DNA of 24,271 bases from a virus. Where the stretch lies: positions 1 through 24,271 of the IMG/VR virus record IMGVR_UViG_3300010885_025368; one strand, 5' to 3'. The position numbers and the translations under genes were made by a program. The notes beneath the pieces were generated by a model, which worked only from the letters and a program-made list of their open reading frames with translations, was not told the origin of the DNA and made no database searches. Positions 3,507-21,979 of this stretch are shown piece after piece; positions within the stretch are counted from its first letter, which is position 1; every line of letters begins with the position of its first letter.

Positions 3507-3508
3507 AG

Positions 3509-5818
3509 ATGGCATTTGAAGAAAGACGCCGAGGTAAATTACCAACTCCGGGCCCATTCTTGGCTGAAATTACCAGCCACCTAGATCCTAGCTATATGGG
3601 TAGACTAGAAGTTTCTTTAATTAAAAATTTACAAAGTAATATTGATGATCAAGGGCAAACTTATATAGTTAGTTACCTAAATCCTTTTTACGGAGCCACC
3701 TCCGCTCGTTTTGAAGGTAACAACAGTAGCGATTTTAACGATGTACAAAAAAGTTATGGCATGTGGTTTATCCCGCCAGATGTCGGAACTACAGTTATGG
3801 TTATCTTTATTGATGGAGATCCTAATCAAGGATATTGGATGGGCTGTATACAAGATCCTTTTCAAAATCATATGGTTCCAGGAATTGCGGCTAGTAAACA
3901 AACTGCAATGACACAACAACAAAAAGATCGCTATGGTACAGAATATCTTCCTGTTGCTGAATTTCTTAAAGGCACACAAAAACTCAACGATCCTAATGTA
4001 GATAAAATTGCTAAACCCATACATCCATTTGCTGATAGATTATTAGCACAGGGATTATTATTAGATACCGTCCGAGGTCCTACATCAAGTAGTGCTCGAA
4101 GAGAAGTACCTAGCGGAGTATTTGGAATATCAACACCTGGGCCCTTAGATATTAGTACTAATGCTAAGACAGGTAAAATAGGTTATGCAGGTAATCGTCA
4201 GGTTCCTGTAAGCAGATTAGGTGGTAGCACATTTGTTATGGACGATGGTGATGTCAATGGGCAAAATGAATTAGTCAGAATTCGAACTCGTACTGGTCAT
4301 CAAATATTAATGCACAATAGCCAAGATTTAATTTACATTGCTAACTCTAAAGGTACTGCATGGATTGAAATGACCAGTAATGGTAAGTTAGATATCTATG
4401 CCGCAGATAGCGTTAGTATCCATACTGAAGCAGACTTTAATTTTCGTGCTGATAGAGATATCAACATTGAAGCAGGTCGAAATATTAATATGAGAGCAGT
4501 AGGTAATATGGAAACCAATATTAGTGGATACTATTATCTTGTGGTTGACGATTACGGAAAAATATCTTTTAAGAATGATGTCGATGAAACCATTGGTGGA
4601 ACTCAAAGAACAACAGTGGCACAAGATATTAATCTTGTTGCAGGTAAAGATGTATTGTTTACAGCCGATGCTTCGATGCACCTAAGTGCTGAAACAAATA
4701 TGTTCCAAGGAGCAGGTGAGAATTTTAATGTTGGTGCTAGTGGCAACTATTACGGAACAGCCGCAAAATATCATATGAATGGTCCGGCTGCGGCAGCTCC
4801 TACTGCGGCAGATGCGGCAACTGCTCCGCCACTATTGAGCATCTATCATTTGCCTAATAGAAATCCTAATACCGGCTGGGCAGTTAATAACAAATATAAA
4901 ACTACACCTATTAGCAGTATTATGCAACGTGTACCAACACACGAACCGTATGATCAACATGAAAATATTAATCCTCAGGCATTTAGTTCTACAGCAACAG
5001 ATGTAACATTACAAAGTCGTCCGGGGGTAGCACCTAATCCTAATTCAGGTCTTGTAGATAGTCCTAATACATCAGAAGTTGTACCAGGTACTTGTGATCC
5101 CAAATATGCTAAAGATATTAATAATTCTGCGAGTAAAGCAGGAATAGATGCATTAAAAGCCGCCGCAGAAAAATTAGGATTAACTGCGCCTGCGGCAGTA
5201 GCAAGTTTATTAGGTATTGCAGGTGGAGAAAGTCGTTGGAAAGTTGTTACAGAAAGTTTTAATTATACATCTGCCGCAAGATTGTTAGAAGTATTTCCTA
5301 CAGTATTCAAAGGAGATTCTGCACTTGCACAACAATATGTTGGGAATCCTAATAATAGTTTGCCTGAATTCTTATATGGTTATCAAACTGCCAAAGGTAA
5401 AGGCCTTGGTAATACACAGGCTGGAGATGGTGCCGCATTTATTGGTCGCGGATTTATACAATTGACTGGTCGTGCAAACTACACAAAATATAGTAGTTTG
5501 ATGTTTAGTAAAGGTCTTGTGAGTTCTGCAACAGCGTTAATTGATAATCCAGAACTGCTCAATAATGTAACAACAGCCGCACAGGTAAGTGTCCTGTACT
5601 TCTTAGACCGTGTTAAAGTTCCGCAGACTGATCCTGGATATTTTGAAGCCGCATGTCGTGCCGTGGGATTTAATACACCTGATATTCATGCTACTAAACA
5701 AGGATTTTATCAATGTTTTCTAGGTCAATTACAAGGCACTGTTGTACAATCCGGTAGTGGAACAATAGTTACAGATAGTTCAGGCAATCCAATTAAGTCT
5801 GGTCAAATAGCACAATAA
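3509..5818 (+). CDS. 5: gp5-type baseplate hub/tail spike protein with C-terminal GH19-type lytic domain
   Basis: This 769-residue protein is the likely central spike of the baseplate, puncturing the outer membrane and opening peptidoglycan during infection. Residues about 15-125 look like the gp5/VgrG OB-fold (GPFLAEI, YMGRLEV, YGMWFIPPDVGTTVMVIF, GYWMGCI). Residues about 240-300 lead into a beta-helix with short repeats to about 415 (GKLDIYAADSVSI, RDINIEAGRNINMRA, QDINLVAGKDVLFTA). A Pro/Ala/Asn linker follows. Residues about 529-745 resemble GH19 chitinase/endolysin domains: GGESRW with E574, TESFNY with E582, and GRGFIQLTGRANY at 646-658. By comparison with phage GH19 endolysins, E574 and E582 are the candidate catalytic pair, cleaving the glycan strand. 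In T4 gp5 the lysozyme domain is of another family and sits between OB-fold and beta-helix, so this order differs. The stop overlaps a late-promoter-like motif before gp25. Confidence 0.88.
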   Translation: MAFEERRRGKLPTPGPFLAEITSHLDPSYMGRLEVSLIKNLQSNIDDQGQTYIVSYLNPFYGATSARFEGNNSSDFNDVQKSYGMWFIPPDVGTTVMVIFIDGDPNQGYWMGCIQDPFQNHMVPGIAASKQTAMTQQQKDRYGTEYLPVAEFLKGTQKLNDPNVDKIAKPIHPFADRLLAQGLLLDTVRGPTSSSARREVPSGVFGISTPGPLDISTNAKTGKIGYAGNRQVPVSRLGGSTFVMDDGDVNGQNELVRIRTRTGHQILMHNSQDLIYIANSKGTAWIEMTSNGKLDIYAADSVSIHTEADFNFRADRDINIEAGRNINMRAVGNMETNISGYYYLVVDDYGKISFKNDVDETIGGTQRTTVAQDINLVAGKDVLFTADASMHLSAETNMFQGAGENFNVGASGNYYGTAAKYHMNGPAAAAPTAADAATAPPLLSIYHLPNRNPNTGWAVNNKYKTTPISSIMQRVPTHEPYDQHENINPQAFSSTATDVTLQSRPGVAPNPNSGLVDSPNTSEVVPGTCDPKYAKDINNSASKAGIDALKAAAEKLGLTAPAAVASLLGIAGGESRWKVVTESFNYTSAARLLEVFPTVFKGDSALAQQYVGNPNNSLPEFLYGYQTAKGKGLGNTQAGDGAAFIGRGFIQLTGRANYTKYSSLMFSKGLVSSATALIDNPELLNNVTTAAQVSVLYFLDRVKVPQTDPGYFEAACRAVGFNTPDIHATKQGFYQCFLGQLQGTVVQSGSGTIVTDSSGNPIKSGQIAQ

Positions 5819-5821
5819 ATA
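5814..5821 (+). promoter_or_regulatory. T4-type late promoter motif AATAAATA before gp25
   Basis: AATAAATA overlaps the gp5 stop (TAA at 5816-5818) and ends 4 bases before the gp25 ATG. T4 late promoters carry TATAAATA about 6 bases before the start of transcription. Here that would place the RNA start at or just inside the gp25 ATG, so it is either a promoter for a leaderless message, a promoter mainly serving downstream genes, or coincidence. Confidence 0.4.
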
Positions 5822-5825
5822 TAGT

Positions 5826-6263
5826 ATGGCATACAAATCACTAGTCATTACCAACGCTAACGCAGTTCCGCAACAACCTGTTAAAACAAGTCAGTTTTAC
5901 AAAGGATTTAGTAGTCAGGATCCTGCTAATACTACAGCACGGTTGTACGATCTTGCTCTAATCAAACAAGACATCTTAAATCAATTTAATACTCGCAAAG
6001 GTGAACGAGTAATGAATCCTCAATTTGGCAGTATTATTTGGGATGTCCTAATGGAACCAATGACTGAACAAGTCAAGGAAGCCCTTAATAAAGATATCAC
6101 TACTATTTGTAATAGTGATCCTAGAGCTATTCCTACTCAGATTAACTTAACAGAATATGAGTCAGGATATCTAATCGAAATAACTTTACAGTTAGCAGGT
6201 ACAGATCAATCTAGCAATATGATATTGACTTTTGATCAACGTGCCGGCCTCACAGTACAATAA
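5826..6263 (+). CDS. 25: Baseplate wedge / sheath initiator protein gp25
   Basis: A 145-residue protein of the gp25 family, close to the usual length (T4 gp25 is about 130). In contractile tails gp25 joins the wedge core (gp6, gp53) and provides the template on which the sheath polymerises. The family signature is clear: ARLYDLALIKQDILNQFNTR followed by KGERVMNPQFGSIIWDVLME (residues about 38-78), then a helix (VKEALNKDI) and the C-terminal strands ending GTDQSSNMILTFDQRAG. Although the family has been labelled lysozyme-like, this fold is structural and no lytic activity is inferred. It lies 7 bases after gp5 and 46 bases before gp6. In T4, gene 25 is in the 51-27-29 cluster rather than beside 5 and 6; here all are together. 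No Shine-Dalgarno site is visible before the ATG; the next in-frame ATG is inside the conserved core, so 5826 is the start. Confidence 0.93.
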   Translation: MAYKSLVITNANAVPQQPVKTSQFYKGFSSQDPANTTARLYDLALIKQDILNQFNTRKGERVMNPQFGSIIWDVLMEPMTEQVKEALNKDITTICNSDPRAIPTQINLTEYESGYLIEITLQLAGTDQSSNMILTFDQRAGLTVQ

Positions 6264-6309: not shown

Positions 6310-9300
6310 ATGACCATCCCATCAACCCCTACCCAATTACTTGTTACCGAAGACTGGAAAAAAATCTATCAAAGTTTTCGAAATGCTGACTTTCAAAGTT
6401 ATGATTACGAAACAATTCGTAGAATTTTAATTTCTTATCTACAAGAAAACTACCCAGAAGACTTTAACGATTTCATTGATAGTAGTGAATATATTGCTTT
6501 AGTTGATTTAATAGCATATCTAGGACAGAATTTAAGTTTCCGTATTGATCTAAATGCTCGTGAAAACTTTTTAGAAACAGCACAACGCAGAGATAGTATT
6601 TTACGTCTAGCACAGTTAATTAGTTATGTTCCTAAACGTAATATTCCTGCTAGCGGTCTATTAAAAATTACAGCAATTTCTAGTACAGATTCAATAACAG
6701 ATTCTACTGGAGTTAATCTAGCTGGTACTACAATCAGCTGGAATGATCCAACAAATACAAACTGGTATAATCAATTTATTAGTATAATAAATTCTGCAAT
6801 GCCAGCTCCGACGACATTTGGTAAACCTAATGACCATGCTAAAATTAATGGTATTAGTACTGATCAATATTTGATTAATAGTTCTAATCCTGACGTTCCT
6901 ATATATAGTTTTAGTAAGAATGTCAACGGAACTTCTATGTCTTTTGAAATTGTCCCAGCTACATTCAAAGGACAAAGTTATATCTACGAATCGACACCGA
7001 GTCCTGCTAGTCCTGTAAGTGTATTATATCAAAATGACAATCAAGGATCTGGTAGTCCGAGTACAGGATTTTTTGCCTTATTCAAACAAGGTACACTGGG
7101 ATTCAGCAACTTTAGCATTACTAATCCTGTAGCTAATGAAATTATTGGAATTAATGTTAGCAACATAAACAATACTGATGTTTGGTTATGGCAGCTTAAT
7201 AATGATGGATCGTATCCATCGACTCCTTGGACAAAAGTTCCCGCAGTAGTAGGTACTAATGTTATATATAATAATATTGCTTCAAATATAAGAAATTTGT
7301 ATAGTGTTACTTCTAGAGACAGTGATCAAATTGATTTGAATTTTACTGATGGTAGTTTTGGTAATTTACCTAAAGGTAATTTTAATTTATATTATCGTCA
7401 AAGTAACGGATTGACCTATGCTATCAAACCCGAACAAATGAGTGGGATTGTTATAAATGTTCCATATATTAATCAATCAGGGCAATCTCAAACATTGACA
7501 CTAACATTAGGATTACAATACACTGTTAGTAATAGTTCAGCTCCAGAATCTAATGCTACTATACAACGTAATGCACCCCAGTCATATTATACACAGGCTA
7601 GGATGGTTACGGGTGAAGATTATAATATAGCACCATTAACTTATACAAGCAATGTACTTAAAATTAAAAGTACAAATAGAGTAAGTAGTGGAATCAGCAA
7701 ATATTATGAACTGAGCGATGTTAGTGGAAAATACAGTTCTACAAATATATTTGCAACAGACGGTATACTTTATAAAAATACACACGAAAAGAATTTTAGT
7801 TTTACGTTTTCTAGTAGAAATCAAATTCTATCTGTTATTAAAAAACAATTAGAACCTATCGTTGCATCTCCTGCATTGAAATCTTTTTATATTGATACAT
7901 ACAGATCAATTGCTCCTGTAATACTTAACCCCGATACAACTACACTTATTTCTAGATGGCATTCGAGTAATGTAGTATCTGGACAAAGTCGAGGATATTT
8001 TGTTTTAGATGAAATACGATCAGGTAAAGTTGTTCAAGTACCTATATCAGTTGGCTCATTAGTAAGTTATCCTTACAGACATATATCTGCAGGTTCAATG
8101 ATAAAATTTGTACCACCTGTTGCTAATAATAAACCACAGTATTTTTTACCTAACGGAAAAATTACACCTACCAAGAGTAGCAAAACTACAGATTATATTT
8201 GGGTTACAGCAATACAAGTAATTGGCGATGGAGCAAATGGTGGTTTAGGAAATCTAAACGATGGTACGGGTCCAGTAGTTCTTAGTGACCAGTTAGGCGA
8301 CGGTGCTATTCCTGTTGAAATAATTCCTTCATTTATAGATACTTTTTCTTATAATTTTGAAAACTCTCTTGTTAATCTATGTTTGACACAGCGTAATTTT
8401 GGTTTGTCATATAGTGTCGGATCTAGAAGTTGGACAATCATTGAAGACACAAATTTAGATTTAACTAATCCATTTAGTACAACCGATCAAGGCAACAATA
8501 GTAATTCTAATAAAGACTCAAGTTGGTTGATAGCATTTACATGGAACGGTGATCGTTATAAAGTTAGATATAGGATTACTGATTTTGTATTTCAAAGTAC
8601 AAAACAAACAGGATTTTATGTTGACCCGACTGATGTAAATTTTGATTTTACAACTAACTCTGTAATTAAAGATAAAATCAATGTATTGGCATTGAACACA
8701 AAACCTGGAATTAATACATCATCTCAAGGATTAGGTAAAGACTATAGTTGGCAAATAAATTCTCCAGTTACTGAAGTAGATGGATATACTGATCCTTCAA
8801 AAGTTTTAATAAGTTTTTACAGTCATCAAGATTCAGGAACAATTGGTCAAATAATTGACCCTGATTCATTTAATAATATAGTAGGCACGTCGACTGCTAA
8901 TACTTCAGACGGTTATGTTATGTATCAAGTTTCTACAGATGGTATGACAGTTACTCCTGTGGATAATTTATCATTTGTGGTATTTCCTACAGAAGCTGAT
9001 GCTATAACATATTACAATACATTTAGCGGACTTAATTCGGATTACTTGTATTACTTTACATCAACCAATGTTGTTAAGAAAGTAAACGGTTCTGCATTTG
9101 TTCTACAACCAGGGTATGTAGTATATCCTGGTCGGGCAGAATTAAGTTTCCACTATCTACATAATAGTGGACATGAACGTAGAATTGATCCTAGCAAAAG
9201 TAATATTATTGACATTTATATGTTGACAGCAGATTATGATACAGCATTTAGAAATTGGTTATTGACAGGAGCAGGAACAAAACCGTTGCCTCCTACCAGC

Positions 9301-9768
9301 CAAAGTTTGGAAAATAATTATTCTAGTGACTTAGAACCGATTAAAACTATAAGTGATGAAATAGTTTACCAACCTGTAACTTATAAAATATTATTTGGTT
9401 CTAATGCTGATATTACTTTGAGAGCAACTTTTAAGGCTGTAATTAATCCTAATAGTACTGCTAGTAAAAACAATATTGTATCTCGAATATTATCTGCTAT
9501 CAACACATTCTTTGCTTTAGAGAATTGGGAGTTTGGTCAAAGTTTTTACTTTAGTGAATTATCAACTTATGTAATGAACTTATTATCTCCTGATATAACA
9601 AATTTTATAATGGTTCCTACTGTAAATAATTTTGGAAGTCTATATGAAATCAATTGTCAAAACAACGAAATTTTTATTAGCGGAGCAACAGCCGCTGATA
9701 TTGAAGTGATTAGCGCAGTAACAGCTTCTCAGCTAAACACTGATTTTATTGTAACCAATGCCGGATAA
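6310..9768 (+). CDS. 6: Baseplate wedge protein gp6 (enlarged)
   Basis: gp6 forms the iris-like ring of wedge dimers in the T4 baseplate, linking the hub to the outer wedge proteins. Residues about 12-115 carry the strongest signature: TEDWKKIYQSFRNADFQSYDY, ENYPEDFNDFIDSSEYIALVDLIAYLGQ and RENFLETAQRRDSILRLAQL. The C-terminal 200 residues (about 950-1145) match the other conserved gp6 region: VTYKILFGSNADITLRATF, then INTFFALENWEFGQSFYFSELSTYV and NFGSLYEINCQNNEIFI. At 1152 residues it is far longer than T4 gp6 (about 660). The added length is in the middle (about 120-940), rich in Ser/Asn/Thr and predicted beta. The start at 6310 fits a short leader from the late promoter motif. The end overlaps, or lies 7 bases before, the giant gene depending on that gene's start. 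Family assignment is confident; the role of the central part is not known. Confidence 0.92.
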   Translation: MTIPSTPTQLLVTEDWKKIYQSFRNADFQSYDYETIRRILISYLQENYPEDFNDFIDSSEYIALVDLIAYLGQNLSFRIDLNARENFLETAQRRDSILRLAQLISYVPKRNIPASGLLKITAISSTDSITDSTGVNLAGTTISWNDPTNTNWYNQFISIINSAMPAPTTFGKPNDHAKINGISTDQYLINSSNPDVPIYSFSKNVNGTSMSFEIVPATFKGQSYIYESTPSPASPVSVLYQNDNQGSGSPSTGFFALFKQGTLGFSNFSITNPVANEIIGINVSNINNTDVWLWQLNNDGSYPSTPWTKVPAVVGTNVIYNNIASNIRNLYSVTSRDSDQIDLNFTDGSFGNLPKGNFNLYYRQSNGLTYAIKPEQMSGIVINVPYINQSGQSQTLTLTLGLQYTVSNSSAPESNATIQRNAPQSYYTQARMVTGEDYNIAPLTYTSNVLKIKSTNRVSSGISKYYELSDVSGKYSSTNIFATDGILYKNTHEKNFSFTFSSRNQILSVIKKQLEPIVASPALKSFYIDTYRSIAPVILNPDTTTLISRWHSSNVVSGQSRGYFVLDEIRSGKVVQVPISVGSLVSYPYRHISAGSMIKFVPPVANNKPQYFLPNGKITPTKSSKTTDYIWVTAIQVIGDGANGGLGNLNDGTGPVVLSDQLGDGAIPVEIIPSFIDTFSYNFENSLVNLCLTQRNFGLSYSVGSRSWTIIEDTNLDLTNPFSTTDQGNNSNSNKDSSWLIAFTWNGDRYKVRYRITDFVFQSTKQTGFYVDPTDVNFDFTTNSVIKDKINVLALNTKPGINTSSQGLGKDYSWQINSPVTEVDGYTDPSKVLISFYSHQDSGTIGQIIDPDSFNNIVGTSTANTSDGYVMYQVSTDGMTVTPVDNLSFVVFPTEADAITYYNTFSGLNSDYLYYFTSTNVVKKVNGSAFVLQPGYVVYPGRAELSFHYLHNSGHERRIDPSKSNIIDIYMLTADYDTAFRNWLLTGAGTKPLPPTSQSLENNYSSDLEPIKTISDEIVYQPVTYKILFGSNADITLRATFKAVINPNSTASKNNIVSRILSAINTFFALENWEFGQSFYFSELSTYVMNLLSPDITNFIMVPTVNNFGSLYEINCQNNEIFISGATAADIEVISAVTASQLNTDFIVTNAG
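9763..9766 (+). promoter_or_regulatory. Weak ribosome binding site (GGAT) deciding the giant gene's start
   Basis: GGAT within the gp6 stop region is 9 bases from the ATG at 9776, whereas the earlier in-frame ATG at 9758 has no purine-rich site before it. It also fits the conserved-looking N-terminus MATSKINSVNLLP. Ribosomes ending gp6 at 9768 could restart here. Confidence 0.4.
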
Positions 9769-9775
9769 AACAAAA

Positions 9776-12700
9776 ATGGCAACTTCTAAAATCAATTCAG
9801 TTAATTTATTACCAACAGTCTTACAAACAGATAGAAACACTAAGTTTCTAGCTAGTACACTTGACCAACTAATTCAACCTGCACAATTAGAACGATTGGA
9901 TGGATATATAGGGTCTACTCGTACACCTACATATAATTCTACAAGCGATGTTTATATTCCGGGCAATGTATATGATCTAGATCCAGCATTGATTACTAAT
10001 GATAGTATAGGTAATATACAGGACGTTCAAGGTTATGATGATTTAATAAATGAAATTTCTATTAAGGGCGGTCTAACTGATAATCTTGATAGGCTTTTTA
10101 GATCAAAAGTTTATTCTTATAATGCGCATGTTGATTGGGATAAACTAGTTAATTATCAAGATTACTATTGGCTAACTGATGGTCCTCAAGTGATTGAAGT
10201 TACTTCTAATTCTTTAGATATTAATTCTACAATTATAGGACAAACAACTGCAACTGTAACTGTAGGTACAGGAACTGTTACTTTAAGTAATGGTATGTTA
10301 ATTACATTTGGTGGAATTGGAATAGCAGAAGAATATCATAACAAAGAATTTTTTGTAGAAGGTGTAGGAACATCAATTGTACTTGTACCTTTTCAAAATT
10401 TAATTACTACTGAAAATCTTGCTACTGATTATGCTGATGGATTTGACACATCACCTTTTGATAATTATTCTTTTGATGACGACCGTCCGGTTCCTGTTAA
10501 TGCTGAATATGTTACAATTAATAGAGCTAGCCCAGATCTAAATCCTTGGAGTCGTTACAATCGGTGGGTACATCAAAATGTAATTACTCAAAGTGCATTA
10601 GCCAATGGAGAAGTTCCAGTTTATCCTGCAAGCCATCGAGCTCAACGTCCTATTGTTGAATTTGAAGCAGGACTTCAGTTATTCAATTTTGGATCTCATA
10701 GTATTCGACCTGTTGATATTATTGATACAACATCGACAAATGCATTTTTAACAATTAATGGTTCTACAGCAACTATAAACACAATACCTTCAACAATAAT
10801 AGATGGAGTAACGTTGGCACAAGGCCATCGTATTGTATTCAATGCAGATCTAAATCCTGATGTAAGGAGTAAAATCTATCAGGTAAATTTTGCACAAGTT
10901 AATGGATATAGAACTCTAACACTTGTTCCTGCAGATGATACACCTCAAAACAATTCTTCAATGATGATTGTTGACGGAACTGTATCAAACGGTACAAGTT
11001 GGTGGTATGATGGTAGTCAGTGGCAATATGCACAACAACGACAAGTCTTAAATCAAGCACCTTTGTTTGATCTATACGATGAAAAAGGTTACAGTTATGC
11101 AGACAAAAATCATTACCTTTCTAATTTTATAGGTAACAAGATATTTGGATATGTAATTGGTACAGGAACTAATGATAAGTATTTAGGTTTTCCTTTATCA
11201 TATCGAAAAATTAATGCTGTCGGCAGTTTCTTATTTTCTAATTATTTGTCTAATGGTAAGATAGTTATTTCTTTTCCAAATCGTACTACAGGGCAGATTG
11301 ATACCAATATAACATATTGTAAACGAAATACTATTCACGGTGAAGTATATGAAAATTCTTGGAAACTAGGTATTGATTATCCTATTCCTGTGTTTACTTC
11401 GCCTTCTGGAGTTAGTTATTATCAAGAACCTTTAAGTTTAACTAACAATCCATTAAATTCAACTATTGAGCAGTTTACAGTTAGCGAACTTAGTGAACAT
11501 GTAGCAACAATGATATCAAGAATTGACGGATATCATATTGATAACTTAGGTGCTGGTAATTTACGAGATATTGGAAATACTACTGATTATGGTACTAAAT
11601 TAATTTCTAATTTTAATCCTATTGCATTTGCTCAGATGTTTATAGGAAAAAAAGAAAATAGTGTAATCGATGCTATTACAAAATCTGCAAATCAGTATTA
11701 TGAATTCAAATTAACATTCTTAAACAGTATCATTAAACTATCTAATCAATTAGATCCTGTGTTAGCTGTTAATGAAGTATTGACTACATTGAATCAAAAC
11801 AACGGCGAAACTAGCCCCTATTATCTATCAGATATGTTGGCATATGGTAACCCAGAAATTCAAAGAACATTTCCAGTTACTGATTCACGTAATGTAATGT
11901 ATCCTTTAAGCAGTGAGTTTGATCTTAGCACATTGAGTTTAAGATCTGTACTAGTTTACCTAAATGGTATGCAACTAATTCATGGGATTGATTATGTATT
12001 TGATAAAGAATTAAACACTGTTAATATATTAACACCTTTGATAAAAGGTGATACTTTAGTTGTTAACGACTATACAAATACTGAAGGCGCATATGTACCG
12101 CCTACACCTACAAAGTTAGGAATGTATCCTGCATTTGTTCCTAAGATATATCAAGATAATACGTATATTACTCCTACAATGGTTATACAAGGGCATGATG
12201 GTAGTATAATGCCTGCGTACAATGATTATAGAGATGCTATTATTCTTGAATTAGAAAAAAGAATTTATAACAATATAAAAGTAAAATATAGATCAGAATT
12301 ATTAGATATTAATAGTGTTATTCCTGGAGCATTTAGAACTACAGATTATTCTATTAATGACATTACTAATATACTGCAACAAGATTTTATAAAGTGGGCA
12401 GGCCAATATACCGTAGATTATGCAACAAATTCTACATTTGATACAACTCAACCTCGTACATGGAATTATTCTGAGTCGTTTAATACAACTCAAAATATAT
12501 CATTATCTGGATCTTGGCGTGCTATCTATAAGTATTTTTATGATACTGATCGCCCCCATACTAATCCATGGGAAATGTTAGGATTCTCTGAAGAGCCAAG
12601 CTGGTGGGAATCAGCGTATGGAACAGACTATTCATCTAACAATATACAATTGTGGAATGATCTTGAAGCAGGATACATTTTTAGTACTGATACTATAAAT

Positions 12701-15700
12701 TCTTATTATGCTCGTCCTGGACTATCAAATATTATTCCTGTTAATGAGTTTGGAAATTTAACACAACCTACTGATAATTTAATATCTAGTGTTGTTCAAA
12801 GTAATATACGTAAGACTTGGATTTCAGGCGATCAAGGACCAGCTGAAACAGCATGGAGAAGAAGTAGTTTATGGCCTTATACGGTTCAGAAAATTTTAGC
12901 CTTAACTATTCCAGCTACCTATGCTTCTTTAATGTACGATACAAGTCGTATGCAAAAAAATATTGCAGGTCAGTGGACATATGATATTGAAGAAAAGTTC
13001 TTACAATTAGGAAATTTACACATATCTGGTGAGAACAATGATCTAACCAGCGGATATAGTGTGTTGGTATCTGAAGTAGGACAACAGCGCACAACTAATT
13101 ATATTTCTGAACTTAGACAAGATTTAGAATATGCTAATTATAATTTGTTCTATAAAGTTGGGGGGTTTGTTGATCAAAGTACCTTACAGGTAATTATAGA
13201 TGCTTATGATCCAACAAGTACTGATCCTGGTGCTATATTACCATCTCAAAATTATAGATTAATTTTAGATACCAGCAATCCTATTAGATCAGTAAGTATA
13301 TCAGGATTTATAATACAAAAATCATCAACAGGATTTACTGTTAAAGGTTATGATAGTCAAAGTCCTTACTTTACATATTATCCTAGCCTTAGAAATCTTA
13401 ATACACAATCAATTACAGTTGGTGGAAAAACAGCATCTTATGTTACATGGGCGCCAAGCGGAACTCTTGGCTCTACTGGTTTAGATAATGCTGATACAAC
13501 TACAGCTCAATCTGCAATAGCTGGTAATTTTTATCAGAAAGGTCAAATTGTTGCTCATGGTAATAACTATTATCGAGTCACAGTTGCACATCAAGCAGAA
13601 ACATCATTCAACACTAGTTACTATCAAATATTATCAGCACTTCCTAGTTCTGGTGGTGCTACGGTTCAAACTGCAAATAGTTTTAGTAAAACACCTGTAC
13701 AAATTCCTTACGGTACAACGTTTGCCAACATACAACAAGTATATGATTTAATTATAGGATACGGACGTTGGGTTGTTGAACAAGGATTTGTTTTTAATGA
13801 ATATAATAAAGATTTAGGAACCATTCTTGATTGGAATCTAACAGCAGAAGAATTTTTATACTGGACAACTCAAAATTGGGATTCGGGCAATATTTTAACT
13901 TTAAGTCCCTTTGCTGATCAAATTGTTTATCAGGCCAATGATTCTGTTGTTGATAATTTATTCAGCGGATTTTATGACTATAGTATACTAACAGTAAATG
14001 GCAGTCCCTATCCACAAAAAGATTTAAGTATTTCTAGGAACAACGGTGTTTGTACTATTGCTACATTACCAAATACTGATGGAATCTATTTTGCCAGATT
14101 AAATTGTGTACAAAAACAACACGGTATGATTTTTGACAACACTGATGATTTTGGTGATGTTATATATGATATACAAACTGGTAGTCGACAGATGCGTATG
14201 AAATTAGTTGGATTTAGAACAGCTAATTGGAATGGAGACTTTTTTAGTCCTGGTTTTGTATATGACAATGTTAAAATAACAAATTGGGCACCTAACATAT
14301 CTTATTTGTCTAGTAGTGTTGTTTATTACAACGGTAACTATTATTCCGCAATAGGTAATATTGAGCCTAGCAAGTATTTTAATTTAACACAATGGGATGT
14401 ATTAACTAAAAAACCCAAGTCAAAATTATTACCTAATTTTGATTATAAAATTAGTCAGTTCTCTGATTTTTACAGTTTAGATATTGATAACTTTGATGCT
14501 GGTCAAGAAAAAATGTCACAGCATCTTACAGGATATACACCCCGTGTTTATCTAAACAATATGTTTACAGATCCTATTGCACAATATAAATTTTATCAAG
14601 GATTTATTAGACAAAAAGGAACTGAAAATTCTATCAATGCATTGTCTAAAGCAACAATACATAACCTACAAGGTCAAGTTAGTTATAACGAAGAGTGGGC
14701 ATTTAGAATTGGGGAATACGGATCGTATACTACATATCAAGAATTAGAAGTTCCGTTAGTTGAAGGCACCTTTTTAGAAAATCCTCAAATTATTAACTTT
14801 GTTGATCAAATACCTGATAACGCAGGAAATAGTCTAATATATTTTAATGTTCCTTCTGACTTTACAATTACACCTAAAAATTATTCTTCGTCAGCTACAT
14901 TTGCATCGACATCTAATCAAGATACACTACTATTAACTCATTCTGGGTATGTAAGACTTGATGATGTTACTGCAACTGCTTACAACGAAAATAGTTTATT
15001 AGATATTGCTAACAATAGTCATTTGGTCGCTGGAGATACAATATGGCTAGGATTTACACAAGATGGTAACTGGGACATTTATAGATATACATATAATCCA
15101 TCAGGTATTATAGGAGTGTATGTAAGTTCGCCAGTTAGTCAAATTACGTTTACAACAGCTGATGCACATGGCCTATCAGCAGGACAAATTATAAGTGTTG
15201 TTGAATTTAATAGTCAGGTTAACGGAATATACATTATTCAATCTGTGCCTTCTATTAATCAATTTACAGTTGCAAGTACTTTATCATCAATTGAAAATGC
15301 AGAGTTACTGTCGCCTGGTAAACTATATGAATTCAAAACAGCAAGACTATCAGAGTTTGATAATTTGCCCTCAGATAAACAATTATATCAATTACCCTAC
15401 GGTACTAAATTCTGGATTGATTCAACAATTAATAATGACAAAAATTGGTCAGTATATGAAAAGATTAATAATTATAGCAGTACAGTAACATATGGAGTTA
15501 ATGTTACACAGGAGAGAAGATCGGCTGGGTTAGGTAACAGTATCAGTAAAAGATACGGTAGTGATGTTGTTGTTGTGGGAGCTCCTAATTATAACAATCA
15601 ACACGGTGAAGTTTTCCTATATACAAAAATAGGATCTACATTAAAAAATATACTAAGATATTCTTTAGGCGGAGCTACAGTTGCTACAGATTTTGGTTAT

Positions 15701-18700
15701 AAAGTAATATATGATGATAAACCTGTAACTGGATCTACATATGGTTTAGTATTTGCATCAGCTCCTAGTGCATCTAGTTCTGCAGGTATTGTTAAAGTTA
15801 GTTCTATTAATTCTAAAACACAAGAAGAAAGTGTTCATGCTTACATTACAAATCCTCATCCAGCAACAACATTGTTTGGTACATCAATGTGGGTTGAAAG
15901 AAATGCTAAAACCAAAGTAGTGTTAGTAGGTGCTCCTGGGTCAGGAACTTCTAAAGGTCTAGCATGGGCATATACAGCTACAGTCACAGCTGGAACAATA
16001 GAAATTTCATCAGCAAATACAGTCACTGATCGTACCATAATTTATACTCCGGGTAGTCAGTGGGGATATGCAATTAGTGGAAATGATAATGGATCATTAA
16101 TTGCAATTAGTGCACCTGGTTATTCAACAAGTACAGGTGTTGTCTCAATAGTTAATAAAAATCTAACTCATATACAAACAATAGTGTCACCTTTTAGTGT
16201 TAATGGTAGATTTGGAGAAACTATATCTATGTCTACACTTGGGGATTACTTGTTTGTATCTGCTCCAAATATTATAAACAGTGATTCTTCAGTGGGTGCA
16301 GTTGCAGTATATAATTTGACCAATGGATTATTTGCATTAGATCAAATTATAGAAAATCCTGTTAGTGGCTCTACAATGAACTTTGGTAAAGCTGTAGATA
16401 TAAATGTCTCTTCGGATACATTGGTAATTTCTGCAGTCGGAGTTAATGCTACTTTCTTAACTACATTTGATTCTAATAGTACATTATTTGATGGAAACAT
16501 TACTAAATTTATTGGTACAGAATCTAACTCCGGTGCAGTCTATATGTATTATAGAAACAACCAGAGATTTGTACTAGCACAAGATCTTACAACATCTACA
16601 ATTGCACTTTCATCTGGTACAAATTTTGGTGTCAGTATAGCAGTCGATGACGGGGTTGTACTAGTTGGTGCACCCGCTAATAGCAATGCTGATATATTAA
16701 GTGCAGTATATCAGTTTAATCAAATAGATACAACAACTGATAGTCTAAGTAAAATTAGAAGTTTTGAAGATTTAGTGATAGTTGATGCTGTACAAAAAGT
16801 ATCTTTAATAGATACTTATAACGAAGACATATTACAATATCTTGATGTTATAGATCCTCTAAAAGGTAAAATAGCAGGTATAGCAGAACAAGAATTAACA
16901 CATAAACTAATCAGTGATCCTGCAATATATTCAATTGGACTTGCCGGTGTAAATGTAGATACAAATACTAATTGGTTAGATGATCATGTAGGTGAACTAT
17001 GGTGGGATCTAAGTACCGCAAAATATGTATGGTATGAACAAAGTGATTTAGAATATCGTAAAAATAATTGGGGTAAATTATTCCCAGGAGCTACTATTGA
17101 TGTATATGAGTGGGTTGGATCTACATTATTGCCCACTGAATGGAGTACTCAAGCAGATACCACACAAGGATTAACACTTGGCATTAGCGGTCAACCTAAG
17201 TTTCCTGATAATAGCATTGTTAGTGTTAAACAAGTTTATGATTCTGTAACTAACTCTTATAGCAATGTATATTATTATTGGGTTAAGAATTCAGTCATTG
17301 TTCCTAATGCTAAAAATAGACGTATTAGTAGTTATGAAGTAGCCAGTATAATTGCAGATCCTACTGCTTATGGATTAGAATTTGCGGCAATGATTGCACC
17401 TAATGCAGTAGCATTAAGTAATGTTGGACCTATGTTAGTTGGCAAAAATATCAGCCTTAACATAGGACAAGATACAGTATCAGAAAAATTATCTAATCCT
17501 ATACCTAAGCACACTGAATGGTTGATCTTACAAGAACACAGTGAAAACAGTATGCCTAGTGCACTATTAGAAAAGAAACTTGTGGACAGTTTACTAGGAC
17601 ATGATAATCTTGGTAACATTGTACCAGACCCGTCTTTAAGTTTAAGAACACGTTATGGTATAGGTATTAGGCCACGTCAAACTTTATTCAAAGATAGATT
17701 AACTGCTATTAGAAATATTGTTGAATTTACTAATAGTGTTCTAATTAAAGAACAAATTACGGGTAATTATGATTTCATTAATCTTAATTCTCAAGAAGAA
17801 ATTCCTAGTCAGTATTTAGGAACATATGATAAATTAATTGAAGATAATAACGAACTTGCATTAATAGATACAACCGTATTTCAGCAAGCAGTTATACAAT
17901 GTTTAGTTGATACCGATGGTCGTGTTACAGGAACCAATATTATAAGTTCAGGATTTGGTTATGGTATATTAAATCCTGTGTCTGATGGTTACTATCAAGG
18001 ACCCACATTTATATCAGACGGGTCAGGATCTGGTCTTGAAATAGCCACAGTTGTTAATAATCAAGGTAGTGTTGTAGAAGTTAATATATTAAATGGTGGC
18101 AATGATTACATCGGTAATTTTAATATTACATCTCGCCCTCAATCAGTAATTGTTATTAGTGATAGTACATTCAACGGAGGCTGGACGCAATTTGAATACA
18201 GTTATAACACCAACCAATGGATACGTGCTCGTACTCAAAGTTACAATACAACTCTGTATTGGAAATATATAGATTGGTTGAGTAGTGATTACAATCAATA
18301 TCAAATATATTCATACGTCATAGGTAGTGCATATGAGTTAGGTGAACTAATACTAGTACCTGGTCAATATGTTAAAATTAATAATGGTGGAGATGGGAAC
18401 TATATAGTTGTCGAATCGATTAACCCTAATACTTATGGAACATTTGGTCGAGGATTTAATGTTGTATATAAACAAAATGGAACTATTCAACTTTTAGATA
18501 CTTTATGGAGTAGAACAAATAATGATTATACATTTGACTATGTTAGATCGTATGATCAAACTTTATGGGATCAAACTCCGGATCTAGAGTTAGAGTATAT
18601 ACTAACCGCTCTAAAAGATAATCTATTTGTTAATAATCTAAAAATTAATTGGAATTTGTTATTCTTCAAAGCTGTAAGATACGCATTATCGGAACAGAAA

Positions 18701-21700
18701 TTATTAGATTGGGCATTTAAGACATCGTTTATAAATGTAACAAATAGCGTGGGGCAATTAGAACAACCTCCTGTATATAAACTACAAGATAGTAGTTTCT
18801 ATCAACAATATATTGAAGAAGTCAAACCCTATCATACACAGATAAGAAACTTTACTACAAAATATTCTACGGTAGAACCTACTAATACATATCTAACTGA
18901 TTTTGATTTTCCTTCTTATTATAATACTACAACACATAATTTAATTGTGCCTATAGTAAATGATAATGAAGTTAACGGTAAACCTGTAAGAAAAATTGAC
19001 ACTACAATTAAGTTTGATAGGATTTCAAAAGAAAATCAAATTGGAGAATTAACCGCAGTTGATACATTTATATGTAATGGACATAATAATCAATTTACAT
19101 TAAATTGGCAGGCACAACCTGACAGAAATAAAATTTCAATTCAAATTAGTGGAGTTCCGTCAGTACTTAATCCTTTGGAACCATATCATACAGGTATTGT
19201 ATTATCGGAAGATTTTACAATTCAATTTGACAATAATGTTAGTACAGTTGTGTTTTTGAATTACACTCCACAAAAAGATCAAACAATAACAGTAACATAT
19301 CAAAAGAGTGTTGAGTTACTCAATGCTGCCGAACGTATATTAAACTTCTATAAGCCAACTGCCGGAATGCCGGGCGTTGATTTAGCTCAACTAATGACGG
19401 GTATTGAATATCCTGGACTAACAGTTGGTGGACAATATGAAGGGCCTGGATTTGCTGATAGATTTGGTGGAGTATATCCTGATAGTTTCATCGATGGTGG
19501 TACTTGGACAAGTGGTATTTCAGTTAATGCTCTAGGAATTAATCCAGAAGACATTACAATTGACGGTGAATACGGATTTGTAACTCCTAATACAAGTTAT
19601 GCTCCTGAAGAAGTTGTACCTGGGTTTGTTACAGATAGTTTAGGTATTAATGTCTATACTAAAAATAAATTTGGAGCACCTATTGTAATTAATGCCAATG
19701 TTCATGCATTTGCTTCTACACTAACACAGAGTTTTGCGTTATCAGAATTACCGACAACTACTGATAATATTACAGTAATATACAATAATACAGAATTAAT
19801 GTATATTGATTCTACTGATTTTACCAACAGCAATCAGTATACTATTGACTGGGCAGATTCTTTATTAATTATTCCTCCTCAAATTGCTAATGGAATACTA
19901 GGTTATACTATTGTTGGTGTTGGTGGAGGATCTGGGATAACTGCTGGTGTAGTTGACAAATCTGTAACAACAGTGATCAATACAACAACTGCTTATGTTG
20001 AAAGTTTAGCGGCTTATGCAGATATAAAAGATGCATTTGTTACAGTTAATGGTCAACCTATTGATAGAGTTACAACTACTTCTAATTATGGATTTATGTT
20101 GACTCCTGTTAGTCCAATAAATCAACGTGCGGCTGTAAATGTTTATAATCTTAGCACAGCATCTAATACAATACAAGCATGGTTCTTTACAGAGTCCCAA
20201 GTATACTTTAATGTTATTCATGAACAAACTTTTGTACTATCTAATTTTGATATTACACAACCTTTAACATTACAATATCCCCCAGGCAATATAGAACCAG
20301 TATCGCAAAATACAATTATTGAAATTACAGATAATAGTGGTACTAGAAGATTATTGCCACCGGATGCAAATTATTATTCAGTAACAAATACAAATCATCC
20401 TATTTTTAGTTTTACAACTACTATACAAAACAATATAAATGTATTGGTATATCTTAACGGAGTTGCATTAAAGCCGGGATTTGATTATTCAGTTAATACT
20501 GGGGCATTAACAGTTACAATAGATACAGGTAGTGTTAGTTTAACTCGAGGTGATGCTATTGCCATTGAATCTTATTCTCCTGATATTATTGGAAATAGTG
20601 ATCCGTTAACTACTAATTATTCATATCAATATAGAATAGTTGGGTCAAAACTTTATCTTTCACCGAGAGCAGGTGGCACAGACATATATACAATCTCATC
20701 TGCAACACTTAAAGTTATTACATACACAGATGCAGACGGAATGTTAGTTGAGTCACAAAAATTTGTTGGCAATCCCAATAGAAGATTTACATTAAATCGT
20801 CCAATTCTTAATACCAATTATGTTTTTGTGACGGTATTCAAATATAATCAAAGTTATCCATTGGTTAACGGTATTGATTATATTGTATTAGATGATAGAG
20901 TAACTGTACAGTTAAATGATAATTGGAATTTGAATAGTAACGATACTGTTGAAATTATAAGTTTTGGCACCCAACGGTTTAGCAGTACTGTATTAGGATA
21001 TCGTATATTCAACGATATGTTAGGCGGTACTTCTTTTACAAGATTAAGTTCTAAGTATTCTACATATCTAACACAACCTTTGCATGTATATGACACAGAA
21101 ATTCATGTAGCAGATTCTTCAATTTTAACTCCTCCAATAATTGATGCAAATATTCCTGGAGTTATTATTATTGATGCAGAGCGAATAGAGTTTTTCCAAA
21201 TTCATGGAAATGTATTATCTCAATTGCGTAGAGGAACATTGGGCACTAGTCCTTCAACTTATTTGAAATTTGGAACCAGTGTAATAGATCAAGGTTCTTT
21301 CCAAACATTACCATTTACTGAAAAAATTAGAATACAAAATACCTTTACAAATACGTTGACTAATGTTCATGTAATAAGTAAAACCACTTTACCGAGAAGG
21401 ACGTATCCAAATACATCAACTTTTGTACATTGTGACGGAATTACATTATCAACTGGTACTGCTTTAATTGACCAAGTTGATGTTTATTATGGTGGTCGAC
21501 TGTTAAGAAAAATTGGTGAATATTATCACGAAACCACTGCAACCTATGAAAGTTTAGACCCAAGTAGTATTGTAGGATCTACATCATCTGTTGCATTGTT
21601 ACCATTAGGTGTTAATGTTGGAGATTCGTATCTTGTAACTGATACTAACCAAGTATGGACACATACAGGATCACGAACTCAAGCACCGTCGACATCAACT

Positions 21701-21979
21701 TATGTTTATTCTGGATTAAAATATTTGCCTCAGGAGTATACTATTTCAATGAATGGAACTACACAGATATTGACTATCAATACTTCAACATTAGGTGTTG
21801 AAAAAGATCTGCAGATTTCTATTGTTAAGAAAGATTTTGCAACAACTGCTACATGGAATACTATTGATCCTACAGATAATGCCAAAACATTAAGTTTGTT
21901 AGATAGCACTACGACAGTTGCGCTATTCTTACAGGCGGCCCCGGCAGCATTGCCAGACAATTACTTTTATGGTGTATAA
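9776..21979 (+). CDS. Giant virion structural protein (baseplate/tail, in the gp7 position)
   Basis: About 4067 residues, half of the window, uninterrupted. The first 150 residues (LPTVLQTDRNTKFLASTLDQL, LDGYIG, AHVDWDKLVNYQDYYWL) resemble the N-terminus of very large structural proteins of marine T4-like phages. In order (residues approximate): SWWYDGSQWQY 405; VYLNGMQLIHGIDYVF 730; HLTGYTPRVYLNN...KFYQGFIRQKGTENSI 1580-1620; seven FG-GAP-like repeats 1917-2317; VGELWWDLS 2405; a Gly/Ser-rich GFGY...GSGSGLEIA domain 2710-2790; EVKPYHTQIR 3015; GMPGVDLAQLM 3197; VYLNGVALKPGFDYSV 3560; ERIEFFQIHG...LRRGTLGTSP 3800-3825. No transmembrane segment or enzyme motif is evident. It sits directly after gp6, where T4 has gp7, gp8, gp9 and gp10, so a peripheral wedge or fibre-attachment role is inferred. 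An alternative ATG at 9758 adds 6 residues and overlaps gp6 by 11 bases. Confidence 0.85.
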   Translation: MATSKINSVNLLPTVLQTDRNTKFLASTLDQLIQPAQLERLDGYIGSTRTPTYNSTSDVYIPGNVYDLDPALITNDSIGNIQDVQGYDDLINEISIKGGLTDNLDRLFRSKVYSYNAHVDWDKLVNYQDYYWLTDGPQVIEVTSNSLDINSTIIGQTTATVTVGTGTVTLSNGMLITFGGIGIAEEYHNKEFFVEGVGTSIVLVPFQNLITTENLATDYADGFDTSPFDNYSFDDDRPVPVNAEYVTINRASPDLNPWSRYNRWVHQNVITQSALANGEVPVYPASHRAQRPIVEFEAGLQLFNFGSHSIRPVDIIDTTSTNAFLTINGSTATINTIPSTIIDGVTLAQGHRIVFNADLNPDVRSKIYQVNFAQVNGYRTLTLVPADDTPQNNSSMMIVDGTVSNGTSWWYDGSQWQYAQQRQVLNQAPLFDLYDEKGYSYADKNHYLSNFIGNKIFGYVIGTGTNDKYLGFPLSYRKINAVGSFLFSNYLSNGKIVISFPNRTTGQIDTNITYCKRNTIHGEVYENSWKLGIDYPIPVFTSPSGVSYYQEPLSLTNNPLNSTIEQFTVSELSEHVATMISRIDGYHIDNLGAGNLRDIGNTTDYGTKLISNFNPIAFAQMFIGKKENSVIDAITKSANQYYEFKLTFLNSIIKLSNQLDPVLAVNEVLTTLNQNNGETSPYYLSDMLAYGNPEIQRTFPVTDSRNVMYPLSSEFDLSTLSLRSVLVYLNGMQLIHGIDYVFDKELNTVNILTPLIKGDTLVVNDYTNTEGAYVPPTPTKLGMYPAFVPKIYQDNTYITPTMVIQGHDGSIMPAYNDYRDAIILELEKRIYNNIKVKYRSELLDINSVIPGAFRTTDYSINDITNILQQDFIKWAGQYTVDYATNSTFDTTQPRTWNYSESFNTTQNISLSGSWRAIYKYFYDTDRPHTNPWEMLGFSEEPSWWESAYGTDYSSNNIQLWNDLEAGYIFSTDTINSYYARPGLSNIIPVNEFGNLTQPTDNLISSVVQSNIRKTWISGDQGPAETAWRRSSLWPYTVQKILALTIPATYASLMYDTSRMQKNIAGQWTYDIEEKFLQLGNLHISGENNDLTSGYSVLVSEVGQQRTTNYISELRQDLEYANYNLFYKVGGFVDQSTLQVIIDAYDPTSTDPGAILPSQNYRLILDTSNPIRSVSISGFIIQKSSTGFTVKGYDSQSPYFTYYPSLRNLNTQSITVGGKTASYVTWAPSGTLGSTGLDNADTTTAQSAIAGNFYQKGQIVAHGNNYYRVTVAHQAETSFNTSYYQILSALPSSGGATVQTANSFSKTPVQIPYGTTFANIQQVYDLIIGYGRWVVEQGFVFNEYNKDLGTILDWNLTAEEFLYWTTQNWDSGNILTLSPFADQIVYQANDSVVDNLFSGFYDYSILTVNGSPYPQKDLSISRNNGVCTIATLPNTDGIYFARLNCVQKQHGMIFDNTDDFGDVIYDIQTGSRQMRMKLVGFRTANWNGDFFSPGFVYDNVKITNWAPNISYLSSSVVYYNGNYYSAIGNIEPSKYFNLTQWDVLTKKPKSKLLPNFDYKISQFSDFYSLDIDNFDAGQEKMSQHLTGYTPRVYLNNMFTDPIAQYKFYQGFIRQKGTENSINALSKATIHNLQGQVSYNEEWAFRIGEYGSYTTYQELEVPLVEGTFLENPQIINFVDQIPDNAGNSLIYFNVPSDFTITPKNYSSSATFASTSNQDTLLLTHSGYVRLDDVTATAYNENSLLDIANNSHLVAGDTIWLGFTQDGNWDIYRYTYNPSGIIGVYVSSPVSQITFTTADAHGLSAGQIISVVEFNSQVNGIYIIQSVPSINQFTVASTLSSIENAELLSPGKLYEFKTARLSEFDNLPSDKQLYQLPYGTKFWIDSTINNDKNWSVYEKINNYSSTVTYGVNVTQERRSAGLGNSISKRYGSDVVVVGAPNYNNQHGEVFLYTKIGSTLKNILRYSLGGATVATDFGYKVIYDDKPVTGSTYGLVFASAPSASSSAGIVKVSSINSKTQEESVHAYITNPHPATTLFGTSMWVERNAKTKVVLVGAPGSGTSKGLAWAYTATVTAGTIEISSANTVTDRTIIYTPGSQWGYAISGNDNGSLIAISAPGYSTSTGVVSIVNKNLTHIQTIVSPFSVNGRFGETISMSTLGDYLFVSAPNIINSDSSVGAVAVYNLTNGLFALDQIIENPVSGSTMNFGKAVDINVSSDTLVISAVGVNATFLTTFDSNSTLFDGNITKFIGTESNSGAVYMYYRNNQRFVLAQDLTTSTIALSSGTNFGVSIAVDDGVVLVGAPANSNADILSAVYQFNQIDTTTDSLSKIRSFEDLVIVDAVQKVSLIDTYNEDILQYLDVIDPLKGKIAGIAEQELTHKLISDPAIYSIGLAGVNVDTNTNWLDDHVGELWWDLSTAKYVWYEQSDLEYRKNNWGKLFPGATIDVYEWVGSTLLPTEWSTQADTTQGLTLGISGQPKFPDNSIVSVKQVYDSVTNSYSNVYYYWVKNSVIVPNAKNRRISSYEVASIIADPTAYGLEFAAMIAPNAVALSNVGPMLVGKNISLNIGQDTVSEKLSNPIPKHTEWLILQEHSENSMPSALLEKKLVDSLLGHDNLGNIVPDPSLSLRTRYGIGIRPRQTLFKDRLTAIRNIVEFTNSVLIKEQITGNYDFINLNSQEEIPSQYLGTYDKLIEDNNELALIDTTVFQQAVIQCLVDTDGRVTGTNIISSGFGYGILNPVSDGYYQGPTFISDGSGSGLEIATVVNNQGSVVEVNILNGGNDYIGNFNITSRPQSVIVISDSTFNGGWTQFEYSYNTNQWIRARTQSYNTTLYWKYIDWLSSDYNQYQIYSYVIGSAYELGELILVPGQYVKINNGGDGNYIVVESINPNTYGTFGRGFNVVYKQNGTIQLLDTLWSRTNNDYTFDYVRSYDQTLWDQTPDLELEYILTALKDNLFVNNLKINWNLLFFKAVRYALSEQKLLDWAFKTSFINVTNSVGQLEQPPVYKLQDSSFYQQYIEEVKPYHTQIRNFTTKYSTVEPTNTYLTDFDFPSYYNTTTHNLIVPIVNDNEVNGKPVRKIDTTIKFDRISKENQIGELTAVDTFICNGHNNQFTLNWQAQPDRNKISIQISGVPSVLNPLEPYHTGIVLSEDFTIQFDNNVSTVVFLNYTPQKDQTITVTYQKSVELLNAAERILNFYKPTAGMPGVDLAQLMTGIEYPGLTVGGQYEGPGFADRFGGVYPDSFIDGGTWTSGISVNALGINPEDITIDGEYGFVTPNTSYAPEEVVPGFVTDSLGINVYTKNKFGAPIVINANVHAFASTLTQSFALSELPTTTDNITVIYNNTELMYIDSTDFTNSNQYTIDWADSLLIIPPQIANGILGYTIVGVGGGSGITAGVVDKSVTTVINTTTAYVESLAAYADIKDAFVTVNGQPIDRVTTTSNYGFMLTPVSPINQRAAVNVYNLSTASNTIQAWFFTESQVYFNVIHEQTFVLSNFDITQPLTLQYPPGNIEPVSQNTIIEITDNSGTRRLLPPDANYYSVTNTNHPIFSFTTTIQNNINVLVYLNGVALKPGFDYSVNTGALTVTIDTGSVSLTRGDAIAIESYSPDIIGNSDPLTTNYSYQYRIVGSKLYLSPRAGGTDIYTISSATLKVITYTDADGMLVESQKFVGNPNRRFTLNRPILNTNYVFVTVFKYNQSYPLVNGIDYIVLDDRVTVQLNDNWNLNSNDTVEIISFGTQRFSSTVLGYRIFNDMLGGTSFTRLSSKYSTYLTQPLHVYDTEIHVADSSILTPPIIDANIPGVIIIDAERIEFFQIHGNVLSQLRRGTLGTSPSTYLKFGTSVIDQGSFQTLPFTEKIRIQNTFTNTLTNVHVISKTTLPRRTYPNTSTFVHCDGITLSTGTALIDQVDVYYGGRLLRKIGEYYHETTATYESLDPSSIVGSTSSVALLPLGVNVGDSYLVTDTNQVWTHTGSRTQAPSTSTYVYSGLKYLPQEYTISMNGTTQILTINTSTLGVEKDLQISIVKKDFATTATWNTIDPTDNAKTLSLLDSTTTVALFLQAAPAALPDNYFYGV
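15525..16727 (+). other. Seven FG-GAP-like repeats (probable beta-propeller) inside the giant protein
   Basis: Seven successive units of the form (F/Y/W)G-x(n)-(V/I)-S/G-A-P-x(n)-G-x-V-x-x-Y are seen. They are YGSDVVVVGAPN (15552), FGYKV...VFASAPS (15692), FGTSM...VVLVGAPG (15875), WGYAISGNDNGSLIAISAPG (16060), FGETI...YLFVSAPN (16210), FGKAV...LVISAVG (16381) and FGVSIAVDDGVVLVGAPA (16625). FG-GAP repeats are known from integrin alpha chains, where seven make a propeller; seven here is the number expected for a closed domain. Unit 4 has an N-D-N-G loop that could bind calcium; unit 6 has the P replaced by V. Confidence 0.7.

Follow-up and report, generated by a model that had tools for sequence, protein, structure and literature searches.

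The giant baseplate-operon protein encoded in the window (the whole 24,271-nt virus record IMGVR_UViG_3300010885_025368, positions 1-24,271) contains a predicted seven-bladed FG-GAP propeller of the integrin type, placed between two conserved segments of its scaffold. The protein has 4,073 amino acids and is encoded by an open reading frame at 9758-21979 on the plus strand, where the propeller occupies nt ~15470-16732. The reading that we favor, at a probability of roughly 0.55, is that this propeller was gained once, has been kept in nearly all descendants and cleanly lost at least once, and serves as a displayed binding platform whose preferred partner would be the host envelope.

The repeat consists of seven FG/WG/LG...GAP/SAP/SAV units at residues ~1913-2325 of the giant protein, with unit motifs starting at nt 15530, 15692, 15875, 16061, 16211, 16382, and 16625. 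Motif matches in the whole protein are confined to residues 1925-2306, and shuffled versions of the protein contain 0.09 motifs on average, with a maximum of 3 in 1,000 shuffles. When profiles of the seven units, built from 63 relatives, were compared with one another by hhalign, 17 of the 21 pairs reached a probability of at least 90%, and this unit-to-unit similarity indicates that the repeat is real rather than a chance run of motifs. Motif search, shuffles, and unit profiles together confirm the seven FG...GAP-type units in a row reported by an earlier note on this DNA, which had been made from the letters alone and judged the motif well kept in five or six units: the GAP/SAP tripeptide is present in six units and is replaced by SAV in unit 6. 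The spacing, given there as ~110-240 bases, had too low a lower figure (we measure 150-243 nt), and the extent, given as 15525-16727, was slightly small, since blade 7 takes in a strand that precedes unit 1; secondary structure places the domain at residues ~1905-2325. The units, all on the plus strand and each delimited by motif, model, and unit profiles, are unit 1 (LG...VGAP, residues 1913-1968, 15494-15661), unit 2 (FG...ASAP, 1969-2031, 15662-15850), unit 3 (FG...VGAP, 2032-2089, 15851-16024), unit 4 (WG...ISAP, 2090-2143, 16025-16186), unit 5 (FG...VSAP, 2144-2199, 16187-16354), unit 6 (FG...ISAV, 2200-2277, 16355-16588), and the three-stranded unit 7 (FG...VGAP, 2278-2325, 16589-16732). 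They are flanked on the same strand by the left edge of the insertion site, W-S-V-Y-E-K (residues 1897-1902, 15446-15463), which is near-invariant in relatives, and by the right edge, S-L-S-K-I-R-S-F-E-D-L-V (residues 2329-2340, 16742-16777), for which the consensus in relatives is R.Q.DLVD.

An AlphaFold2 model of the propeller on a 63-sequence alignment reached a mean predicted local distance difference test score (pLDDT) of 88.3 and a predicted template modeling score (pTM) of 0.88. Its strands, read in order from the secondary structure of the model rather than from coordinates, form seven units with a three-stranded final blade and one lone strand ahead of unit 1. This lone strand (residues 1905-1912, 15470-15493, plus strand; E26-32 in the model) would be the outer strand of blade 7, and the alignment of model residue 23 or 24 with integrin residue 1 fits such an integrin-style closure. 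The prediction is therefore of a closed seven-bladed propeller with four-stranded blades, in which the N-terminal strand completes blade 7. All of the 50 top fold matches in the PDB are integrin heads (Z 34.5-37.5), the best with Z 37.5 over 366 residues at 3.4 Å. A second model, of 1,101 residues, reproduced the propeller strand pattern in context, with low confidence except in the propeller and the segment just ahead of it. Sequence profiles point to the same family. A Pfam scan of the entire giant protein did not report FG-GAP, and the second half of the propeller segment alone matched PF14312 FG-GAP_2 (E 4e-5, 24.0 bits against a cut-off of 23), as did 61 of the 63 relatives at E up to 1 (best E 1.4e-17); searched against the PDB, the 63-member family profile found integrin alpha-4 (E 1.2e-14), alpha-M, alpha-6, and alpha-X. 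A Pfam HisK_sensor match in 23 members is low-scoring and was judged probably spurious. The earlier note had tied its FG-GAP propeller reading to a structure prediction and a profile search, and both support it: the first returned a complete seven-unit integrin-type propeller and the second FG-GAP_2 and integrin alpha head matches, so that neither outcome named as refuting (no closed propeller, no FG-GAP or integrin-like match) occurred. The likeness does not extend to the metal sites. Strict DxDxDG calcium loops number zero in all 63 sequences, where a metazoan-type integrin propeller, as defined by Chouhan et al., has them between strands 1 and 2 in at least three blades. The same definition asks for a cage motif (two aromatics, G, aromatic, X13-20, P, X2-15, G) in every blade; its strict form occurs in 0 of the 7 units and a relaxed one in the first five (units 1-5), the P being absent from unit 6 and the last G from unit 7. 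The domain is thus an FG-GAP_2-type, integrin-like propeller and not a member of the integrin family, nor, given that the integrin calcium motif is absent throughout the relatives, a calcium-binding integrin head.

Relatives with and without the propeller allow its site and history to be read. Two sets of 80 loci were collected, one with the upstream core as query and one with the downstream core, and all loci with both anchors have 389-1,022 residues between them, with the sole exception of locus L063, which has none. At its junction, at most a few residues separate the left edge, W-A-V-Y-K-K, from the right edge, R-T-Q-V-D-S-V-D, and the same short junction can be read by eye in the phages PA5oct and Atu_ph07. 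The comparison with and without the insertion that had been proposed for related giant proteins thus finds the site empty in these three. The propeller is inserted between two neighboring segments that are conserved, W-x-V-Y-x-K and R-x-Q-x-D-L-V-D. In ten cultured phages with the downstream core, the giant protein gives no propeller match even with the family profile, and a tblastn search of 50,697 phage records with the propeller as query gave no match. On a tree of the downstream core, the absence of the propeller needs two changes (shuffled mean 9.7), the propeller is present in 116 of the 117 environmental rows of the broad clade, and L063 is nested inside the propeller clade with support 98, its sister contigs L052, L061, and L059 bearing the propeller. 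Because of this nesting, the simplest reading is one gain followed by loss in L063; with a midpoint root and some long cultured branches, the tree gives the first change a provisional direction. The 353-kb record of L063 holds no other propeller of this type, its lone match being the left edge itself. The propeller also occurs on several marine metagenome-assembled genome (MAG) contigs, which are probably binned phage DNA. Three further marine MAG contigs (L186, L188, and L189) have the downstream core and no propeller match, and may represent additional lineages without it.

The propeller changes more quickly than the protein that carries it. Mean pairwise identity is 0.43 before the propeller, 0.34 within it, and 0.57 after it, and the propeller's rate of evolution is 2-3 times that of the scaffold. 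Among the closest relatives, the ratio of nonsynonymous to synonymous substitution rates (dN/dS) is 0.18-0.32 for the propeller as against 0.08-0.14 for the core, values that are rough because synonymous sites are near saturation. The propeller is, then, under purifying selection yet faster-evolving. Variation in length is larger in the 2-3 and 4-1 loops, on the FG-GAP face, than in the 1-2 and 3-4 loops (one-sided p 0.003); for example, the 2-3 loop of blade 2 has 8 amino acids in the window protein versus a median of 30 in relatives. Some loops hold whole extra segments, placed by eye: in L035, L038, and L054, large insertions come after strand 3 of blade 3, of blade 5, or of both (for blade 5, in L035 and L054), the 3-4 loop of blade 3 being the insertion point of a helical-looking stretch in L035 and L038, and in L046 and L053 insertions follow the second strand of blade 7. 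Insertions of ~60-residue repeats, 'TRAEVLAAYQNN.DA.LYPDEASIRYWMINGLG', which look helical and match no Pfam family, lie in propeller loops at L035:12692-15790, L038:12695-14542, and L054:11399-13711.

The mechanism that we propose is that the propeller would form a rigid platform, carried in one loop of the conserved scaffold and displayed on the baseplate, where it would bind through the FG-GAP side with its length-variable 2-3 and 4-1 loops, could carry extra domains spliced into these loops, and would have the host cell envelope as its preferred partner. We infer surface display, binding function, and partner from several features that favor an exposed binding role, namely the faster evolution, the loop insertions, the occasional loss, and two stretches elsewhere in the giant protein. 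One is a CBM5/12-like (chitin-binding type 3-like) stretch in the window protein (residues 1256-1282, 13523-13603, plus strand; PF02839 E 4e-5, 23.9 bits, under the 26.2 cut-off), and the other a set of Laminin-G/concanavalin-type lectin domains inserted upstream of the propeller in the homologue of one relative, L060 (~8500-9430; PF13385 E 1.6e-27). The PA5oct-like homologue in vB_Pa-PAC2 is annotated with a chitin-binding type 3 domain. An exposed binding role also has phage precedents in the propellers of the phi11 receptor-binding protein and of phiKZ gp131C (PMC4901313). Several observations weigh against this proposal. Selection on the propeller among the closest relatives of the window is purifying, and its dN/dS led us to reject diversifying selection; substitutions are not concentrated on the top-face loops, the bottom loops changing equally or more, so that a hypervariable ligand face is partly supported, by length variation and not by substitutions; L063 does without the propeller; and a structural partner would account equally well for the near-universal retention and for a divergence that runs parallel to that of the core (Mantel rho 0.57).

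These last two features keep alive the strongest alternative, in which the propeller has an internal role, structural or in docking, joins neighboring baseplate or tail-fiber proteins, and never touches the host. Many propellers hold proteins together, and such a role would also agree with the purifying selection and with the long 2-3 loop of blade 6, which has a conserved TFD...F.D motif; it agrees less well with a propeller that outpaces its scaffold, tolerates domain-sized insertions in its loops, is dispensable in L063, and is absent from ten cultured relatives. We regard internal docking as a serious if tentative contender, and host-surface binding seems somewhat ahead of it. Some phage propellers are enzymes, such as endosialidases (PMC4901313), and this one could be a domain that degrades a surface polymer, but all 50 listed structural matches are non-enzymatic integrin heads and the segment has no convincing enzymatic Pfam family (no search was aimed at a conserved catalytic set), making an enzyme improbable. 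Slightly harder still to credit is a tolerated insertion without present function: the clean absence in L063 shows that the propeller can be lost, but fold-determining motifs are kept across ~115 divergent rows and dN/dS is well below 1. That the seven motifs arose by chance in a beta-rich protein, in which glycine, alanine, and serine are frequent, is refuted almost beyond doubt by the shuffle control, the similarity of unit profiles, the predicted structure, and the integrin profile matches.

A bolder version of the favored host-binding reading, which we offer as a speculation with the odds against it, is that in a broad, uncultured lineage of large phages the propeller may be an integrin-alpha-type adhesion head within a core baseplate protein, forming a conserved host-adhesion organ apart from the tail fibers, with recognition domains swapped into its loops. 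If so, the loop-inserted recognition domains would parallel the alpha-I domain carried by integrins. Large-phage baseplate proteins are mostly unannotated, and public databases name this giant protein merely "virion structural" or "hypothetical"; a removable, confidently predicted module with natural pairs with and without it offers a handle on the function of the giant protein and on how uncultured phages recognize cells.

The identity of the giant protein itself rests on homology and gene order. The profile of phrog_10938 (virion structural protein) covers its scaffold (E 6.7e-299), and tblastn finds matches in 60 phage records, the homologues including PA5oct gp355, Atu_ph07 gp180, 121Q gp582, and CBB_236. 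The PA5oct gp355 record bears a note of electrospray ionization tandem mass spectrometry, and CBB_236 was detected by mass spectrometry in CBB virions with 21 peptides (PMC5259590). Gene order and this peptide evidence from homologues make it well supported that the giant protein is a virion protein encoded in a baseplate operon; we infer from the same evidence a baseplate location for this particular protein, and the position inside the wedge suggested in the earlier note would likewise rest on it. Equivalence to the wedge subunit gp7 would be positional only, agreeing with the place after gp6: hhalign of the single T4 gp7 sequence against three core alignments gave no match, and sequence searches of the scaffold flanks against the PDB gave chance-level matches only. 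The window, from an uncultured T4-like phage lineage, holds part of a T4-like baseplate operon, in the order P0002, gp5-like, gp25, gp6, and giant gene. P0002, a structural protein, precedes the gp5-like baseplate hub/lysozyme P0003 (3509-5818, plus strand; PF04717 above cut-off, phrog_13211 E 5e-51), which in addition to OB and needle-like parts has an endolysin-type C-terminal domain (5135-5608, residues ~543-700; phrog_181 E 1e-26). The gp25-like (5826-6263, plus strand; PF04965 39 bits against a cut-off of 27.2) and gp6-like (6310-9768, plus strand; phrog_10646 E 1.3e-280) wedge subunits follow, and the last 11 nt of the gp6-like gene are shared with the start of the giant gene. Homologues of gp5, gp25, and gp6 thus stand upstream of the giant gene in the order expected of a T4-type baseplate operon; in PA5oct and 121Q the homologous giant gene is preceded by these genes in identical order, and a gene annotated as baseplate wedge lies immediately upstream of it in Atu_ph07, XacN1, RaK2, CBB, and Hallingskeid. 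GC content is 0.38-0.41 at positions 2000-6000 (the last part of P0002, the gp5-like gene, and the first part of gp25) versus ~0.31-0.34 in most of the remaining operon.

Propellers are already known in phage baseplates, and FG-GAP proteins in phages. The C-terminal domain of phiKZ gp131C (PDB 4GBF) is a seven-bladed propeller at the baseplate periphery of a jumbo myophage and is thought to bind the host (PMC4901313); we liken it to the present domain by description, as it is not among the 50 fold matches listed. In the receptor-binding protein Gp45 of phi11, the baseplate propeller is the likely sugar-receptor site (PMC4901313), but it has five blades in a separate trimeric protein, whereas here seven blades lie inside a giant protein. 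CBB encodes Kelch propeller structural proteins, of which CBB_552 is in the virion (PMC5259590); these are separate genes of another family, and the CBB giant protein itself has no propeller match. Closer in family is the 393-residue "hemagglutinin" gp320 of Atu_ph07, an FG-GAP_2 propeller (E 5e-18) encoded by a free-standing gene rather than inserted in the giant protein. This gene (L172 5019-6200) adjoins genes annotated as tail sheath; the giant protein of the same phage has no propeller. Sinorhizobium phage Phosso has two adjacent giant genes annotated as hypothetical (L190 2339-22979; ~3,160 and ~3,690 amino acids), in which dozens of FG-GAP-type units match the propeller profile. A literature search for FG-GAP with phage baseplates found nothing in the searchable literature, with most subscription journals and bioRxiv outside the search; within that scope, an integrin-type propeller inside this giant baseplate-operon protein, typical of a large uncultured clade, appears to be undescribed. 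Beyond phages, the domain shares with the alpha-4, alpha-M, alpha-L, and alpha-V integrin heads its seven FG-GAP blades, N-terminal closing strand, and overall fold (Z 34-37, root-mean-square deviation ~3-4 Å, 16-20% identity) and differs from them in lacking DxDxDG loops, the strict cage motif, and a beta subunit, and in lying inside a phage structural protein. Integrins fill the list of fold matches at least partly because they dominate FG-GAP propellers in the PDB, and the matches therefore say nothing on descent from animals. Integrin-type propellers with seven FG-GAP repeats also occur in bacteria (Chouhan et al., 2011, PMC3192720; VCBS supercluster, PMC8023676), where the bacterial propellers have calcium loops in all seven blades (PMC3192720) and the phage propeller has none. 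To these known prokaryotic relatives of the integrin head, the propeller described here adds a phage branch.

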